A DNA stretch of 64,000 nucleotides from assembly GCF_022271405.1 (NCBI RefSeq), contig NZ_JAJNAL010000012.1:1-64000 (forward strand), read 5' to 3'. Made by a program: the position numbers and the translations under genes. Below, piece by piece: positions 4,282 through 12,181 of this stretch (positions are counted from its first letter, which is position 1; each line of letters opens with the position of its first letter). This DNA is from Rhodopseudomonas infernalis (GTDB taxonomy: Bacteria > Pseudomonadota > Alphaproteobacteria > Rhizobiales > Xanthobacteraceae). A model generated the notes under the pieces. It worked only from the letters and a program-made list of their open reading frames with translations, was not told the origin of the DNA and did no database searches.

Positions 4282-4437
4282 TTAGAACACCGCAAGATAT
4301 TTCAGCAGCGAGATGATGCCGATGATGATCACCACCACTCGGGCGATCTGCTTTGCCCGCCCATCGAGCGGCAGCAGATTTATGAGGTAAAGCACCAGAA
4401 TAACGACCAGGAAAGTAACCAGAATACCGATCAGCAT
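4282..4437 (-). CDS. 51-aa two-helix membrane protein, putative stress-induced
   Basis: Too short for a long-ORF list but convincing. The product is 51 aa with two hydrophobic helices (residues about 2-21 and 32-50) joined by a short polar turn LPLDGRAKQ. This pattern resembles the small Thivi_2564-type membrane proteins of proteobacteria, from memory; the function of that family is unknown. A perfect EcfG-type promoter (GGAAC-N16-CGTT) lies at 4478-4502, about 40 bp upstream of the ATG, and a bidirectional terminator lies just after the stop. It is therefore a single-gene unit, most likely part of the general stress response regulon. Confidence 0.75.
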   Translation of the reverse strand: MLIGILVTFLVVILVLYLINLLPLDGRAKQIARVVVIIIGIISLLKYLAVF

Positions 4438-4477: not shown

Positions 4478-4502
4478 AACGATTAGAGCGCGACGGAGTT
4501 CC
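4478..4502 (-). promoter_or_regulatory. EcfG-type promoter for the 51-aa membrane protein
   Basis: On the minus strand GGAAC (4498-4502), a 16-base spacer, then CGTT (4478-4481). This matches the alphaproteobacterial EcfG consensus exactly. Transcription should begin near 4468, about 30 bases before the ATG at 4437. Confidence 0.8.
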
Positions 4503-5294: not shown

Positions 5295-6047
5295 TTAGTC
5301 GACCGAGGAGACCGAGAGGTTCATCGCCTGCCGCTGCGTCCGGCTGCTGCGAGCCTCCAAATTTGGGGACGATTTCGGCAACACCACAACGCGGCTGCCA
5401 ATTCGGGTTCGGCTGAACAGATCCTCGACATCTTCATTGGTCAATCGGATGCAGCCCGAAGATACGAACTTCCCGATCGTGGAGGGATCGTTGGTGCCGT
5501 GAATGCGATATTCGGTCGAACCGAGATACATCGCGCGTGCGCCAAGGGGATTACCGGGACCGCCTGCCATGAAGCGCGGCAGATAAGGCTGGCGCGCGAT
5601 CATCTGCGCCGGCGGATGCCAATCCGGCCATTCGGCCTTGCGCGTGATCGTCTGGGTGCCGGCCCAAGTGAAACCTTCCCTGCCGACGCCGACGCCGTAT
5701 CGGATCGCACGACCTCCACCGATTACGTAGTAGAGATAGGTATTCGCTGTATCGATCACGATGGTGCCGGCCGGCTCGTTGCTGTCATACCGGACAACTT
5801 GGCGGCGCAGCCGATCGGACAATTGTGAATCTTCATCAGAGCCAGATGCGTCGAGCTGGGCGGCGGGCGGCGTTGCCAGTACCTCGTCATCGGCCCCGAA
5901 CGGACCCGTTTGCGGCGCCGCGGCGTAGCCCATCATCTGGGCCGACGCTGCGCCAGGCAGAGCGGTCGTCAGCAGGAGAGCCGCGGCGATGGCCAGCAGT
6001 GGCCGCGTCATCGATTTGCACCGCGATGAGATCCTAGTATTAATCAT
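5295..6047 (-). CDS. L,D-transpeptidase (YkuD family), exported
   Basis: Periplasmic enzyme that forms 3-3 cross-links in peptidoglycan or anchors proteins to it. The YkuD catalytic motif is clear: HGTNDPSTIG then SSGCIRLTNEDVEDLF, with His183 and the nucleophile Cys199 in a 250-aa product. An N-terminal signal segment ends near PGAASAQ. I start at the ATG at 6047, preceded by GGGGA, rather than 30 bases further upstream. It is first in a two-gene unit with the DUF2865 gene. A perfect EcfG promoter lies at 6095-6119, so wall remodelling under general stress is the likely role. Confidence 0.92.
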   Translation of the reverse strand: MINTRISSRCKSMTRPLLAIAAALLLTTALPGAASAQMMGYAAAPQTGPFGADDEVLATPPAAQLDASGSDEDSQLSDRLRRQVVRYDSNEPAGTIVIDTANTYLYYVIGGGRAIRYGVGVGREGFTWAGTQTITRKAEWPDWHPPAQMIARQPYLPRFMAGGPGNPLGARAMYLGSTEYRIHGTNDPSTIGKFVSSGCIRLTNEDVEDLFSRTRIGSRVVVLPKSSPNLEARSSRTQRQAMNLSVSSVD

Positions 6048-6094
6048 CTTGATGTCCCCGCCTGGTCGCCGCATCATCTGAGACGCTGCTGAGC

Positions 6095-6119
6095 AACGCG
6101 ATCGCCTGCTAACTGTTCC
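6095..6119 (-). promoter_or_regulatory. EcfG-type promoter for the L,D-transpeptidase unit
   Basis: Minus-strand GGAAC (6115-6119), a 16-base spacer, then CGTT (6095-6098), a perfect match. It lies about 50 bp ahead of the chosen start at 6047. Confidence 0.82.
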
Positions 6120-7601: not shown

Positions 7602-7985
7602 TCAGGTCACACACCGGCCGGGTTCGAGATTCTTCGCGACCTCGGTGAGCACACTCACCACTGGCTCGCATGCCACGATCCGACGCGGGGCAACTGTTGG
7701 GCGCTGGGCAGAAGGGCGAGTGGCCTGGCCGAGCTGTGCGTCGGGGACGCGGACCAGCACCGACTGCCCAACCAGCGTCACGCCATAGGTCTGGCTCGCC
7801 ACAGCCGATTGAAATGTTGCGCCGCGATCGGTCTTGCTGCCCCGATTGACGCTTTGGACCGTGGCGTGGCTATTATTCTGGAAGTTGGCCTGCTGACTGA
7901 GGTCGCCCCCCACTGCCAACTGGGCAACACCCAACGAACCCGCGACCGCAAGAACGCCGAAAATTCCCCGCACGATATGTGACAT
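7602..7985 (-). CDS. Small exported protein of unknown function
   Basis: A 127-aa product starting MSHIVRGIFGVLAVAG, with a clear signal peptide (about 27 residues) and a polar remainder rich in Gln, Asn, Ser and Val. I do not recognise a domain. It has no cysteine before the signal peptide end, so it is not an obvious lipoprotein; its two cysteines lie near the C-terminus. It sits between the AI-2E gene and the small RNA within the stress island. No EcfG promoter was found directly upstream. A longer reading frame to 8051 exists, but the signal peptide marks the ATG at 7985 as the start. A competing plus-strand frame over the same bases lacks protein-like features. Confidence 0.6.
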   Translation of the reverse strand: MSHIVRGIFGVLAVAGSLGVAQLAVGGDLSQQANFQNNSHATVQSVNRGSKTDRGATFQSAVASQTYGVTLVGQSVLVRVPDAQLGQATRPSAQRPTVAPRRIVACEPVVSVLTEVAKNLEPGRCVT

Positions 7986-8141
7986 GGCAACCGCCGCTGA
8001 TTTGCACGCCCGCGGCACGATCGCCGCATCCAATTTTCGACGGCTTGTCAAGAGCCGTCGTACAAATTAATCGCTCTGGCGCCCATTCGGTTCGAAATTG
8101 GTTGATCAACTAAGTGTGTGAGAAAATGTCCCTTAACCGTC

Positions 8142-8167
8142 GGAACGAAATTCTGCGCATGCACGTT
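8142..8167 (+). promoter_or_regulatory. EcfG-type promoter driving the small RNA
   Basis: GGAAC (8142-8146), a 17-base spacer and CGTT (8164-8167), a perfect EcfG consensus. No reading frame with a start follows; instead an RNA with two hairpins begins about 7-10 bases later. Confidence 0.85.
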
Positions 8168-8173
8168 GGATGA

Positions 8174-8256
8174 GCGCCGGTTAGTCCCCCCTGCCCCAAT
8201 TAACCGGCGATGCAGGGCGCAGCTGTGGTGATGCCAGCTGCGCCCTGTTCTTTTTT
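8174..8256 (+). ncRNA. gsrN: Putative GsrN-like general-stress small RNA
   Basis: A transcript of about 83 nt bounded by a perfect EcfG promoter and an intrinsic terminator, lying between two minus-strand genes. Its 5' half folds as a 9-bp perfect stem (8175-8183 with 8201-8209) that exposes a 17-base C-rich loop (GUCCCCCCUGCCCCAAU). Such a loop could pair with G-rich Shine-Dalgarno regions. Its 3' half is a 13-bp terminator stem plus a T tract. Caulobacter GsrN, a sigma-T-controlled RNA, has the same plan of an exposed C-rich 5' loop, a 3' hairpin and stress-sigma control. The name is by this resemblance and by the position beside phyR; ends are estimates. Confidence 0.75.
8213..8256 (+). 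terminator. Intrinsic terminator of the small RNA
   Basis: A 13-bp perfect stem (8213-8225 with 8235-8247), a 9-base loop and the tract TTCTTTTTT. Its T tract is on the plus strand only, whereas both flanking protein genes are on the minus strand. It must therefore end a plus-strand transcript. Confidence 0.88.
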
Positions 8257-8339
8257 GCGGGCCGTCCCACTACATGCAGCGCACGAAAAAGCCGCCTGCA
8301 CCATGCTGGCGCAAGCGGCTTGATGATTGGGCGGTGGGC

Positions 8340-9146
8340 CTAGGAGACGGCCGCGTTCGGCGCCCGATTACGCGAATTCCGCTGGAAGAAGAGTGCCTGA
8401 CTGGCGACGGCCGAAACCATCGCAGGCTGGAAGGGCTTCGAGATCAGGAACGCCGGCTCCGGACGCTCGCCGGTCAGGAAGCGCTCTGGATAAGCCGTAA
8501 TGAACACCACCGGCACTTCGAAGGTCTTTAGCAGCTCGTTAACAGCATCGAGACCCGAGCTTCCGTCCGCAAGCTGGATGTCGGCCAGGATCAGACCCGG
8601 CTTCTGGGTCCGTGCCAGCGCAATCGCATCCGAGTGCGTCCGCGCGACACCGATCACGTTGTGCCCAAGGTTCTTCACCAGGCTCTCGAGGTCCATCGCT
8701 ATGAAGGTCTCATCTTCAATGATGAGGACGTCGGTGGCGATCTCTTCCGCCATCTCTCGACCGGCCGAGTCGGCGAGCTGACGAACCTCGTTAACGTCGG
8801 TGTTGAGGACGAACGCCACCTCTTCCTCGGAAAAACCTTCGAGCGAAAGCAACAAGAAAGCCTGACGCGGCAGCGGCGTGATCGCAGACAGTCGACGCTC
8901 GGACGGCATCGGCAATGATCTGACCTCGGAGTCGTCGTTCAGCGCCACCGAATTCCAGATCTGGGCAAACAGTCGAAAAAGCGCGGCGCGCGGTCCATTT
9001 CGCTCGTCCAGCAGGCTTGGGTCCTGCAGAAGCGCTTCAAGCATTGCCGCCACATAGGCATCACCGGAAGCCTGACTTCCGGTCAGCGCGCGCGCATAAC
9101 GGCGCAGCAACGGTAAATGCTCAGCAACCAATTGCGATCTCGACAT
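8340..9146 (-). CDS. phyR: PhyR, anti-anti-sigma response regulator of the general stress response
   Basis: Controls EcfG by partner switching: when phosphorylated it binds NepR and frees the sigma factor. The 268-aa product has the hallmark layout, an N-terminal sigma-factor-like domain (residues about 5-130) that mimics EcfG, then a C-terminal receiver domain (about 140-258) starting at DVLIIEDETFIAMD. The phospho-acceptor Asp is in LILADIQLADG, and the receiver Lys is in LISKPFQP. I start at the ATG at 9146, after GGAGTGGGG. It is divergent from nepR-ecfG, the standard arrangement. Confidence 0.96.
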   Translation of the reverse strand: MSRSQLVAEHLPLLRRYARALTGSQASGDAYVAAMLEALLQDPSLLDERNGPRAALFRLFAQIWNSVALNDDSEVRSLPMPSERRLSAITPLPRQAFLLLSLEGFSEEEVAFVLNTDVNEVRQLADSAGREMAEEIATDVLIIEDETFIAMDLESLVKNLGHNVIGVARTHSDAIALARTQKPGLILADIQLADGSSGLDAVNELLKTFEVPVVFITAYPERFLTGERPEPAFLISKPFQPAMVSAVASQALFFQRNSRNRAPNAAVS

Positions 9147-9218
9147 CCCCACTCCAATCTCGAAGCTTGTCTCGGCCGACGATCACTCGGGGCGGCCGGC
9201 CTCCCCTGCAGGTTTGAC

Positions 9219-9278: not shown

Positions 9279-9369
9279 AGGCTCCCAAGTGAGACGACAC
9301 ACCTTCAAAAATCAAGCAAAACCCTAGAGATTCAGGGGACTTGACCATGGGGAAAACATTGGATCAGTC

Positions 9370-9588
9370 ATGGCAGAATTCAAGGCGAACACCATGAAGA
9401 AGTCGGCGCCTGGCAGTAAAGGCGGGTTGAACCAAGAGATCCAGGCCCGGATCGGCCACCAGCTGCGTGCCATGTACGACGATGTCGTTCGGCAGGGGGT
9501 GCCTGATCGTTTTGCGGACCTGATCAAGCGGCTAGATGAGGCAGAGCAACCGAGCGCCGCATCGGCTGACAGCGAGGGGAGGGACTAA
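9370..9588 (+). CDS. nepR: NepR anti-sigma factor
   Basis: Small protein that holds EcfG inactive in unstressed cells and is captured by phosphorylated PhyR. At 72 aa it has the NepR core: IQARIGHQLRAMYDDVVRQG followed by VPDRFADLIKRLDE, two helices that grip either partner. The tails are disordered and polar. Its stop codon overlaps the ecfG start by one base (TAATG), which couples their translation and keeps sigma and anti-sigma in proportion. Confidence 0.93.
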   Translation: MAEFKANTMKKSAPGSKGGLNQEIQARIGHQLRAMYDDVVRQGVPDRFADLIKRLDEAEQPSAASADSEGRD

Positions 9589-10133
9589 TGCCTCTCACCG
9601 ACTCACTCCGGGACGACATTCTGGCAGCAGTGCCAAGTTTGCGCGCTTTCGCGATTTCACTGAGCGGAAATGGTGACCGAGCCGACGACCTCGTTCAGGA
9701 AACGCTTTTACGCGCGCTGGCCAACATCGACTCCTTCCAACCGGGATCGAACCTGCCGGCCTGGCTTTTTACCATCCTGCGGAATTTATTTCGGTCCGAT
9801 TACCGGAAACGGCGGCGCGAGGTTGAGGATGCAGACGGCAGCTACGCCAAGACGCTGAAGTCACAGCCGGGTCAAAATGCGCATCTCGAATTCGAGGAGT
9901 TTCGCACGGCGCTCGACAAGCTTCCTCAGGATCAGCGGGAAGCCCTCATCCTTGTGGGCGCCTCCGGATTCTCGTACGAGGACGCCGCGGCGATTTGCGG
10001 TTGCGCGGTCGGTACGATCAAGAGCCGCGTGAACCGGGCTCGATCCAAGCTGAGCGCCCTGCTCTATGTCGACGGTGCCGAAGATTTCGGTCCGGACGAC
10101 ACCGTTCGGGCCGTGATCGGTAGCAACGGCTGA
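9588..10133 (+). CDS. ecfG: EcfG general-stress sigma factor
   Basis: An ECF-type sigma factor (181 aa) that directs RNA polymerase to GGAAC...CGTT promoters in the alphaproteobacterial general stress response. Region 2 runs from about residue 15 to 75 (DRADDLVQETLLRALANID, RNLFRSDYRKRRRE), and region 4 from about 110 to 160 (LPQDQREALILVGASGFS, then CAVGTIKSRVNRARSKL). Its placement after nepR and opposite phyR makes the assignment firm. Seven candidate target promoters lie within 8 kb of it. Confidence 0.95.
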   Translation: MPLTDSLRDDILAAVPSLRAFAISLSGNGDRADDLVQETLLRALANIDSFQPGSNLPAWLFTILRNLFRSDYRKRRREVEDADGSYAKTLKSQPGQNAHLEFEEFRTALDKLPQDQREALILVGASGFSYEDAAAICGCAVGTIKSRVNRARSKLSALLYVDGAEDFGPDDTVRAVIGSNG

Positions 10134-10348: not shown

Positions 10349-12079
10349 TCAGCCGCCTCGCAGCGGCGCCGAAATTTGGCCGGTGCGGTCGCGCTCGTTC
10401 ATATCGACGACTGTCACCATTGGTGCGGTGAGTTCGTAGACGTAGCTGACATCGGTGAAATAGCGCTTGGCCGTACCACCAAGGGCCTCCGGTGCCACAC
10501 GGTCCAGCAGAATCACTCCGAAGTCGCTCTCCGCCCGCCGCGTCGCTTCGCTGGTGTTGAACTCCTCCCAGCGGAAATTGAAGATGGACTCCGCTCCCTC
10601 GCCCGTGACCTCCCACGTCGCGACGATGTGCGGATGCTTACCGACCAATGACAACCCCTCGTCGGAATGCGATGCCAGCTCAAAAAACAACAGCGACAGG
10701 CTTTGCGCAGCACGCGCGCTGACCGCGATATCCGGCCCGTTCACCGAGATCCGATCGGCATGCGGAATGGCCCGCGCCTCGAACAGCCCCTTCAGCATCA
10801 CGCCCTGCCACTGACTCTCGCTCAACAGCGAGACCACGTTGGACATCGCGTGAATCCGCCCGATCAAAAGCTCGCGTGCAATGTCGACGTCCGAGCCATG
10901 CCGCAACGTGCGCGTCACGATGGACTGGATCACCGCCAGAATGTTCTTCACCCGGTGGTTCAGCTCGTCGATCACGGCCGTCAGCCGGCGTTCGAAACCG
11001 ATCCGCATTTCGATCTCGCGGCGAAGCCGGACGTTGCTGTTGCTGACGTAGCCGAACAAGCCGCATATGATGAAGGTCAGCGCCAGCCCGGTCGCAGCCA
11101 CGATCGCCGCCACCTGCTGAGCTCGAACATACGGGCTCACCTTGGCATAATAAGCCAGCGACCAATCTCGATCGCCGAACGTCACGGTTCTGACGATCGT
11201 CGGCGGCTCCCGGTCGCGACCGACGGTCCGTTCGCTGACCTTGCCACGATCGTCAGCAACAAGCTCGACATCCGGCTGTCGGGGGTCTTTCAGCACCACC
11301 GAGAACATCGACATGTCGTCGTTGGTCAGCATCAACGCGGAGAGATCATATGAAAAGGTGACAAAGCCGATGGCCTTCGAATTGTCCTCGTTCATCACCG
11401 GAGCTGCCAGAACGATACCGATCGGACTTCCCGGCACCTGCAGGCGAGCCGGATCGGATGCCTCTGGCTTGCCGTCTGCAAGCGAGCGAGCAAACATCTG
11501 GCCGAGCACCGGATGATCGTCCAGAGAGCGTCCGAGCAGCGCAGTGGTCTCGGAATTCCGCGGCTCGAGATCCAGCACCACATCGAGCGGCTCGGTCTGC
11601 GTCGCTGGATCGATCAGGCTGCCATCCGAATGCCGGATCTTGATATCGGCATAGCCGGCGCTTGCGAGTTCCGCTTCGGCGGCGGCAAACTCGCTGCCTT
11701 TCAACCGTACGACCCAGCTCGCCAGTAAGAAATCCGTCTTGAAGGCGTAAATCGACGAGCGCAGCGGCTTCAGCATGTTGGCCTTGATCACTTCGGGAGT
11801 CCGAAACAACCCCGACGCGACACGGCCCAGCAGTTCGCGCTCTGTCAGACGATCTTGAACCTGGCTTGCATGAACGTCGATGGCGCGGCCAAGAGCGATC
11901 CGCTCGACTGCCGCCTCCTGGTCGTAGATGCGAAAGGCCGCAAAGCCGGAAAGCAAAATTCCGACAATCGCCACCAGCGCGATGATGAAACCCAGCCGTA
12001 TCAACGCTTTTACTCGATCAACGAAGGAGGCATCGTCGCCCCGTCCGACATTGTAAATAGCTGCGACCAACGTGAACAA
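10349..12079 (-). CDS. Membrane-bound HWE-family histidine kinase with degenerate N-box
   Basis: Likely stress sensor feeding PhyR. The 576-aa product has a membrane helix at about 30-50, a periplasmic sensor of about 270 residues, a second helix at about 322-345, then an HWE/HisKA_2 kinase core. The phospho-acceptor His375 is in DELNHRVKNILAVIQS. The ATP-binding N-box, usually HELATNA, reads FELASHS, so both the His and the metal-binding Asn (position 471) are replaced; the later RWEEF keeps the W-x-E element. It may therefore be a weak kinase, a phosphatase or a partner subunit. The start is an uncertain TTG at 12079. It has its own perfect EcfG promoter. Confidence 0.85.
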   Translation of the reverse strand: MFTLVAAIYNVGRGDDASFVDRVKALIRLGFIIALVAIVGILLSGFAAFRIYDQEAAVERIALGRAIDVHASQVQDRLTERELLGRVASGLFRTPEVIKANMLKPLRSSIYAFKTDFLLASWVVRLKGSEFAAAEAELASAGYADIKIRHSDGSLIDPATQTEPLDVVLDLEPRNSETTALLGRSLDDHPVLGQMFARSLADGKPEASDPARLQVPGSPIGIVLAAPVMNEDNSKAIGFVTFSYDLSALMLTNDDMSMFSVVLKDPRQPDVELVADDRGKVSERTVGRDREPPTIVRTVTFGDRDWSLAYYAKVSPYVRAQQVAAIVAATGLALTFIICGLFGYVSNSNVRLRREIEMRIGFERRLTAVIDELNHRVKNILAVIQSIVTRTLRHGSDVDIARELLIGRIHAMSNVVSLLSESQWQGVMLKGLFEARAIPHADRISVNGPDIAVSARAAQSLSLLFFELASHSDEGLSLVGKHPHIVATWEVTGEGAESIFNFRWEEFNTSEATRRAESDFGVILLDRVAPEALGGTAKRYFTDVSYVYELTAPMVTVVDMNERDRTGQISAPLRGG

Positions 12080-12156: not shown

Positions 12157-12181
12157 AACGGGATGATCTGCGTATAGTTCC
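12157..12181 (-). promoter_or_regulatory. EcfG-type promoter for the HWE kinase
   Basis: Minus-strand GGAAC (12177-12181), a 16-base spacer and CGTT (12157-12160), a perfect match about 78 bp before the kinase start. It puts the kinase under feedback control by EcfG. Confidence 0.8.

Follow-up and report, generated by a model that had tools for sequence, protein, structure and literature searches.

In the general stress response (GSR), PhyR sequesters NepR and so frees the EcfG sigma factor. The small RNA GsrN of Caulobacter raises KatG by pairing with katG, is processed to a stable 5' isoform and is stabilised by Hfq (Tien et al. 2018, PMC5869019). The same paper predicts gsrN homologues in R. 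palustris and B. diazoefficiens, in both cases at the GSR locus, with proximity and promoter as its only two criteria. Predicted homologues are typically found near the GSR locus, with C. crescentus as an exception, and the criteria for GsrN-like RNAs include intergenic transcription (PMC5869019). The loop of putative GsrN-like RNAs from Rhizobiaceae is cytosine-rich according to the text and G-rich according to the legend of Figure 9C (PMC5869019).

Our analysis concerns a window of 64,000 nucleotides from Rhodopseudomonas infernalis (contig NZ_JAJNAL010000012.1), in which a preliminary description had noted an RNA gene embedded in the PhyR-NepR-EcfG locus. Pfam confirms the three proteins beside the RNA: phyR (8340–9152, minus strand; PhyR_sigma2, PhyR_sigma-like, Response_reg), nepR (9370–9588, plus strand; NepR) and a sigma factor gene of the ecfG type (9588–10133, plus strand; Sigma70_r2, Sigma70_r4_2), named EcfG from its place after nepR. 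The locus also holds a gene for an HWE-family histidine kinase (10349–12079, minus strand; HWE_HK, CHASE). Proximity to ecfG-nepR-phyR is one of the features by which GsrN-like RNAs are recognised. As originally stated, the RNA on the plus strand is opposite to both neighbours, the convergent phyR and a divergent ORF on the minus strand. This ORF matches no Pfam family and is read here as 127 amino acids from an ATG at 7985 (7602–7985); a longer reading from a TTG gives 149 amino acids (7602–8051). Upstream of the RNA promoter, at 8067–8119, stand the conserved blocks TTAATCG, GGTTCGA and GATCAACTNAGYGTGT, which are missing from several other genera and perhaps form the promoter region of the divergent gene.

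The putative transcript (8172–8256, plus strand) would be approximately 80–85 nt long if its start is placed by the -10 box, and the match to our covariance model spans 8171–8258. The preliminary description had read a perfect EcfG promoter, a 9-bp hairpin with a 17-base C-rich loop and a strong intrinsic terminator, and all three parts were recovered. The EcfG-type promoter comprises the -35 box GGAAC (8142–8146) and the -10 box CGTT (8164–8167) separated by 17 nt (GGAAC-N17-CGTT); a near-consensus promoter of this type at the RNA start is what Tien et al. 2018 ask of a GsrN-like RNA. Seven nucleotides after CGTT begins the first stem, CGCCGGTTA/TAACCGGCG, with nine perfect pairs (8175–8183/8201–8209) around the 17-nt loop GTCCCCCCTGCCCCAAT, so that the 5' hairpin (8175–8209) exposes a C-rich loop at 8184–8200 (GUCCCCCCUGCCCCAAU), as is also asked of a GsrN-like RNA. 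The terminator (8213–8256) follows with a stem of 13 pairs (8213–8225/8235–8247), the loop TGGTGATGC (8226–8234) and the T-rich tail TTCTTTTTT, which corresponds to a U tail at 8248–8256. This strand folds with a minimum free energy of -46.5 kcal/mol (z -7.0), and none of 200 shuffles is equally stable. With a C content of 0.59 the RNA loop ranks highest among 40 listed perfect 9-bp hairpins (both strands of the window, loops of 10–21 nt, many listings nested); the runner-up has 0.47. A simple terminator scan of the window does not report this terminator, probably because its loop of 9 exceeds the limit of 8 set by the tool. Rfam 15 gave no match at the gathering score in the whole window.

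The promoter motif alone does not stand above chance. It occurs four times in the window against an expectation of 1.66 ± 1.28, and 9 of 100 shuffles reach four; genome-wide, 64 occurrences compare with 75 of the reversed pattern, which is no excess. We therefore rejected the motif alone as evidence; it is conservation in genus and family that lifts the compound feature above chance. The other three sites in the window, all GGAAC-N16-CGTT on the minus strand, each lie approximately 17–77 nt before a correctly oriented ORF: 4478–4502 precedes a hydrophobic protein of 51 amino acids (4282–4437), 6095–6119 precedes ORF 5295–6077, which we take to be an L,D-transpeptidase by resemblance, and 12157–12181 precedes the HWE kinase gene. 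Their placement suggests that these genes are GSR members, with a number of sites that is near chance.

The RNA is found in all 16 genomes of the genus, and in each of them GGAAC stands approximately 40 nt before the loop sequence GUCCCC. In these genomes the mean fraction of the majority base is 0.52 upstream, 1.00 in the -35 box (invariant in 16/16), 0.53 in the spacer, 0.86 in the -10 box and 0.50 in the 5' leader; it rises to 0.90 and 0.85 in the two arms of the first stem and 0.88 in the C-rich loop, amounts to 0.91 and 0.90 in the terminator stem, 0.95 in the terminator loop and 0.76 in the tail, and falls to 0.48 downstream. As judged from this alignment, the conservation footprint is that of a promoter plus an RNA. 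Base pairs are exchanged in a concerted manner: in the 16 sequences, aligned with MAFFT and free of any model, 10 of 20 stem pairs changed on both sides, and four of five covariation measures were reached by none of 500 shuffles while the remaining one, further pair types, was reached by 20. The preliminary description had named a lack of conservation of loop and stem in relatives as one of its refuting outcomes, and both are conserved. Among 48 sequences picked from the strong family matches (E < 1e-7), 15 of 20 pairs changed on both sides and the paired cells amount to 99.2%; no measure of the five was reached in any of 500 shuffles. This alignment was fitted to the model and leans towards structure. 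When the partner is slid by 1–3 columns, the paired cells fall to 26–52%. In the terminator stem, 11 of 13 pairs show changes on both sides in these 48 sequences.

We also examined 71 copies of the RNA, which remain when 18 opposite-strand readings and three terminators without the C-rich hairpin (the second match of L062, L085 and L086) are removed from 92 rows over 73 loci. The -35 box is present in 69 copies (missing in L063 and L081). Of these, 63 carry NGTT or NGTC as the -10 box, at a spacing of 16 nt in 54 and of 17 nt in nine, and six lack it. The C-loop motif CCCC[CT]GCCC occurs in 62 of 71 copies, with a variable length of the C run; four copies lack this motif only (L015, L031, L044, L055), and the diverged L080–L084 lack both it and the terminator-loop element GTGATGCC. 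Taken as sequence evidence, these data argue strongly that the RNA gene is real and under selection. A second copy of the terminator hairpin of the RNA, with the same GTGGTGATGCC loop but without the 5' hairpin, was seen in a genome of another genus (L062, 3575–3650; G148, g25), approximately 1.6 kb downstream of the RNA.

The surroundings of the RNA are kept as well. phyR lies on the downstream side in convergent orientation in 54 of 71 copies and is not found in the fetched stretch for the other 17, and the divergent gene is upstream in 66 copies and missing in five. In one genome (G039, g25) the RNA and phyR are approximately 15.5 kb apart and the divergent gene still adjoins the RNA; in a Bradyrhizobium (L047) an ORF of 224 amino acids is inserted between the RNA and phyR. 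Since the divergent gene is kept in so many copies, including cases where phyR is distant, the linkage of the RNA to this gene is no looser than its linkage to phyR.

A covariance-model search across the family, as proposed in the preliminary description, returned 93 of 296 family genomes from 11 of 47 genera at E < 1e-7 with a model built from 16 sequences. At E <= 0.01 the same-family matches extend to 108 of 296 genomes and 15 of 47 genera; the 15 additional, weak matches fall in g3, g5, g20, g27, g32 and g41, those that were read are diverged, and the match in G106 (g41) consists of the terminator only. A second model, R2, from 48 sequences was run against 347 genomes of the order; of the 25 that matched at E <= 0.01, 16 belong to the family of the window and nine are weak matches elsewhere. 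These nine (L214–L222) were rejected: within 1.5 kb, the length fetched for this screen, they have no PhyR, NepR, EcfG or divergent gene, a positive control (L018) having worked, and we take them to be terminators or other C-rich RNAs. Against 330 genomes of the class, R2 gave four matches at E <= 0.001, two from the family and two marginal. Outside the family, none of the matches of the covariance model in these 347 order genomes and 330 class genomes is a convincing copy. A pattern that requires both loops exactly occurs in at least 119 stretches of named genomes; the 80 matches listed are mostly from Bradyrhizobium, with others from Rhodopseudomonas, Afipia and Tardiphaga, and the scattered titles among them (Streptomyces, Corallococcus, Caballeronia, Chelatococcus) may be due to chance or mislabelling.

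C-rich loops are also known from the cuckoo RNAs, including CcsR, of alphaproteobacteria, in which hairpin loops resembling an anti-Shine-Dalgarno sequence are combined with an intrinsic terminator. Cuckoo RNAs carry CCUCCUCCC motifs, often in series, and are under other sigma factors, whereas the RNA described here has a single hairpin under an EcfG-type promoter. Two of the rejected matches (L214 and L215, approximately 1480–1580; another family, no GSR genes within 1.5 kb) show two hairpins with C-rich loops in series before a terminator and presumably resemble cuckoo RNAs.

Inspection by eye of the phyR flanks in other families (26 loci, that is 30 phyR loci minus four of the window's family) revealed an EcfG-type promoter with a C-rich hairpin and a terminator in five loci from three families: L239 (f39), L238 (f15) and L245–L247 (f26, one genus). 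The loop of the last three, ...UUCCCCCCUUUGCCCCAGC..., is close to CCCCCCUGCCCCA of the window; for L239, the hairpin is absent from the best fold computed on a longer stretch. No such RNA was seen by eye in the other 21 of these 26 loci. The five look-alikes are analogues by plan and place.

How does this RNA relate to those already described? It is not a new kind: by the printed criteria of promoter, locus and hairpin it is GsrN-like, and it almost certainly belongs to the same gene family as the R. palustris and Bradyrhizobium predictions, with which it shares genera, locus and promoter criterion. With Caulobacter GsrN (PMC5869019) it has in common a promoter for the GSR sigma factor, a 5' hairpin with an exposed C-rich loop, a 3' intrinsic terminator and a length of approximately 80–100 nt. 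Unlike GsrN, it contains two C blocks (CCCC[CT]GCCC) and a conserved terminator loop, which the portions of PMC5869019 drawn on here do not describe for GsrN, and the katG leader of this genome lacks a matching G tract. A pattern for the Caulobacter gsrN loop, derived from the target strings in Table 1 of PMC5869019, found four unconvincing places in three of 340 genomes. The claim of a GsrN plan in the preliminary description therefore stands for plan, position and promoter; as to homology, descent from Caulobacter GsrN is unproven, since the covariance model gave no convincing copy outside the family. The Rhizobiaceae RNAs share the GSR locus, the EcfG promoter and the C-rich loop (PMC5869019), but R2 finds no convincing copy of our RNA outside the window's family in the 347 order genomes. 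A search of the open-licence literature returned no further study of this RNA, which is weak evidence of absence. To the predictions in PMC5869019 the present analysis adds the structure with its covariation, the range, the element in the terminator loop, the linkage to the divergent gene and the look-alikes beside phyR in three other families.

We consider it probable that this gene encodes a small RNA that is induced by stress and acts in trans, in the manner of GsrN. EcfG, once freed, would transcribe it from the promoter at 8142–8167; conservation of this promoter is observed, and dependence on EcfG is what GSR biology leads us to expect. The transcript of approximately 80 nt would adopt the 5' hairpin with the C-rich loop and the intrinsic terminator, as fold and covariation indicate. 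By analogy to GsrN, the C-rich loop may pair with G-rich stretches in mRNA leaders and alter translation or stability, and Hfq would probably bind to the U tail. The terminator loop GUGAUGCC, to judge from its conservation, may also be functional, as a further site at which the RNA pairs or a protein binds.

The preliminary description had proposed that the C loop could target G-rich ribosome sites, which is possible but finds no support in predicted pairing: the katG and phyR leaders pair at background level, and those of nepR and ecfG only slightly better than shuffles. A katG-type gene is present in this genome. The 200 nt upstream of it, taken here to include its leader, contain no G run longer than three, and the predicted duplex between katG and the RNA is no better than shuffles (80 of 100 are as good). 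For the GSR genes we tested leaders at 37 loci, of which L015, L074, L075 and L078 yielded no loop, L011 a wrong loop and two no ecfG leader; beyond the genus, the start of nepR could in several cases be placed only approximately. The 14 usable rows from the genus gave z values from -1.7 to 1.2 for nepR (mean approximately -0.6), from -1.2 to 1.3 for phyR (approximately +0.3) and from -2.8 to 0.9 for ecfG (approximately -0.8). Pairing thus slightly favours the nepR-ecfG message, in rows that are related and with mostly small single values. The complement TGGGGCAGGGG occurs at 73 places in the 16 genomes; in the 30 places that were read, gene starts show no conserved copy of it. Leaving aside the locus of the RNA itself (L266, L272, L293), the only sites that recur between loci fall within coding sequence or in non-coding DNA of a repeat-like character (L276, L290, L292). 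The coding sites belong to a gene that we take to be dehydrogenase-like, in five genomes, and to another of this type in two. A stretch of the nepR leader, CAGGGGACTTGACCATGGGGAA..CATTGGATCAGTC (9333–9369), is conserved in the genus, its first 14 bases being exact in 9 of 16 genomes; a short ORF from 9347 in this leader is not kept, its ATG being ACG in L006 and L007.

Termination depends on the stem and the run of U, and the loop sequence need not be fixed. The element GTGATGCC in the terminator loop (8228–8235, plus strand; its last C closes the stem) is nevertheless present in 16 of 16 genus genomes, in 48 of 48 sequences and in 66 of 71 copies. Because GUGAUGCC is fixed although the terminator stem around it covaries, we regard it as a second conserved element. 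GTGGTGATGCC occurs at 30 places in the genome, and among the 12 that were folded only the one at the RNA locus forms a terminator hairpin. A search for the loop complement as AGG-N4-9-ATGGCATCAC led to the start of a gene that, from its sequence (L353–L382), we take to encode an SDR-type oxidoreductase. The start ATG GCA TCA C is found in 11 of 15 readable genus genomes (G013, cut at a contig end, was left out) and not in G007, G010, G011 and G012; the complement is kept in G060 (g46) and nearly so in G064 (g6). None of eight starts read in g25 and none of eight in g26 has it, though most of those genomes hold the RNA. We therefore rejected this gene start as the reason for the conservation of the terminator loop; a role of such pairing within the genus is not excluded.

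The idea that no functional RNA exists here, only a promoter-like sequence and the terminator of a neighbour that are conserved by chance or for another reason, could appeal to the chance frequency of the promoter motif. However, phyR has its own inverted repeat and T run on its strand at approximately 8286–8321, the 5' hairpin shows covariation and a conserved loop, neither of which a terminator needs, and in all 16 genomes the -35 box contrasts with a spacer that is not conserved. We judge this explanation very improbable, and we give still less credence to a short translated ORF in place of a non-coding RNA. The preliminary description had maintained that no protein frame fits, which has to be qualified: six ORFs of 29–38 amino acids overlap the stretch. 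One of these, of 37 amino acids, is readable from an ATG at 8210 that has an equivalent at about the same place in three of the 16 rows from the genus and 18 of the 48 from the family, but is absent from the other 13 and 30, and conservation tracks pairs and loops and ends after the U tail.

Two other alternatives accept the RNA and differ in what it does. By pairing with the nepR-ecfG mRNA, or that of phyR, it could tune the stress switch itself. The sequence CAGGGGACTTGACC, which can pair with GUCCCC..UG, is found in nepR leaders of the genus (nine of 16 have it exactly, the rest with variations), and z is at or below 0 in 12 of 14 rows for nepR and below 0 in 12 of 14 for ecfG, down to -2.8. 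These values are small, though, and come from related rows; those for phyR leaders scatter around 0, and a G-rich Shine-Dalgarno sequence could explain the result for ecfG. nepR and sigT mRNAs co-purified with Caulobacter GsrN, yet Tien et al. found no evidence of feedback on sigT in that species (PMC5869019). Feedback is on balance unlikely. Alternatively, the RNA could act mainly through the terminator loop GUGAUGCC, as an RNA sponge or a protein-binding hairpin, with a secondary role for the C-rich loop. In support of this view, GUGAUGCC is found in 66 of 71 copies and CCCC[CT]GCCC, with its variable C run, in 62, although these copies were collected with a model that contains the terminator loop and are biased towards it; covariation of the surrounding pairs and the single terminator hairpin among the 12 folded GTGGTGATGCC sites point in the same direction. 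No partner was found, however, the best start-codon complement being that of the SDR-type gene with 0 of 8 starts in each of g25 and g26, and the 3' part of GsrN is dispensable for survival of peroxide in Caulobacter (PMC5869019). We think a main role of this loop quite unlikely.

Within our preferred reading of a trans-acting RNA of the GsrN kind, we tentatively entertain a two-headed stress RNA, which would recognise its partners not only by the C-rich loop but also by the nearly invariant terminator loop GUGAUGCC. If this were true, the terminator would double as a targeting or protein-docking element that Caulobacter GsrN can do without for peroxide survival, and the conserved loop is a precise thing to mutate. 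With the present data, a printed prediction from two criteria becomes an RNA family that is backed by covariation and described by a covariance model. The family ranges over Rhodopseudomonas, Bradyrhizobium, Afipia and Tardiphaga, where the general stress response matters for phototrophs and for symbionts of legumes. Our findings suggest that the stress switch of alphaproteobacteria repeatedly includes an RNA with a C-rich loop next to phyR.
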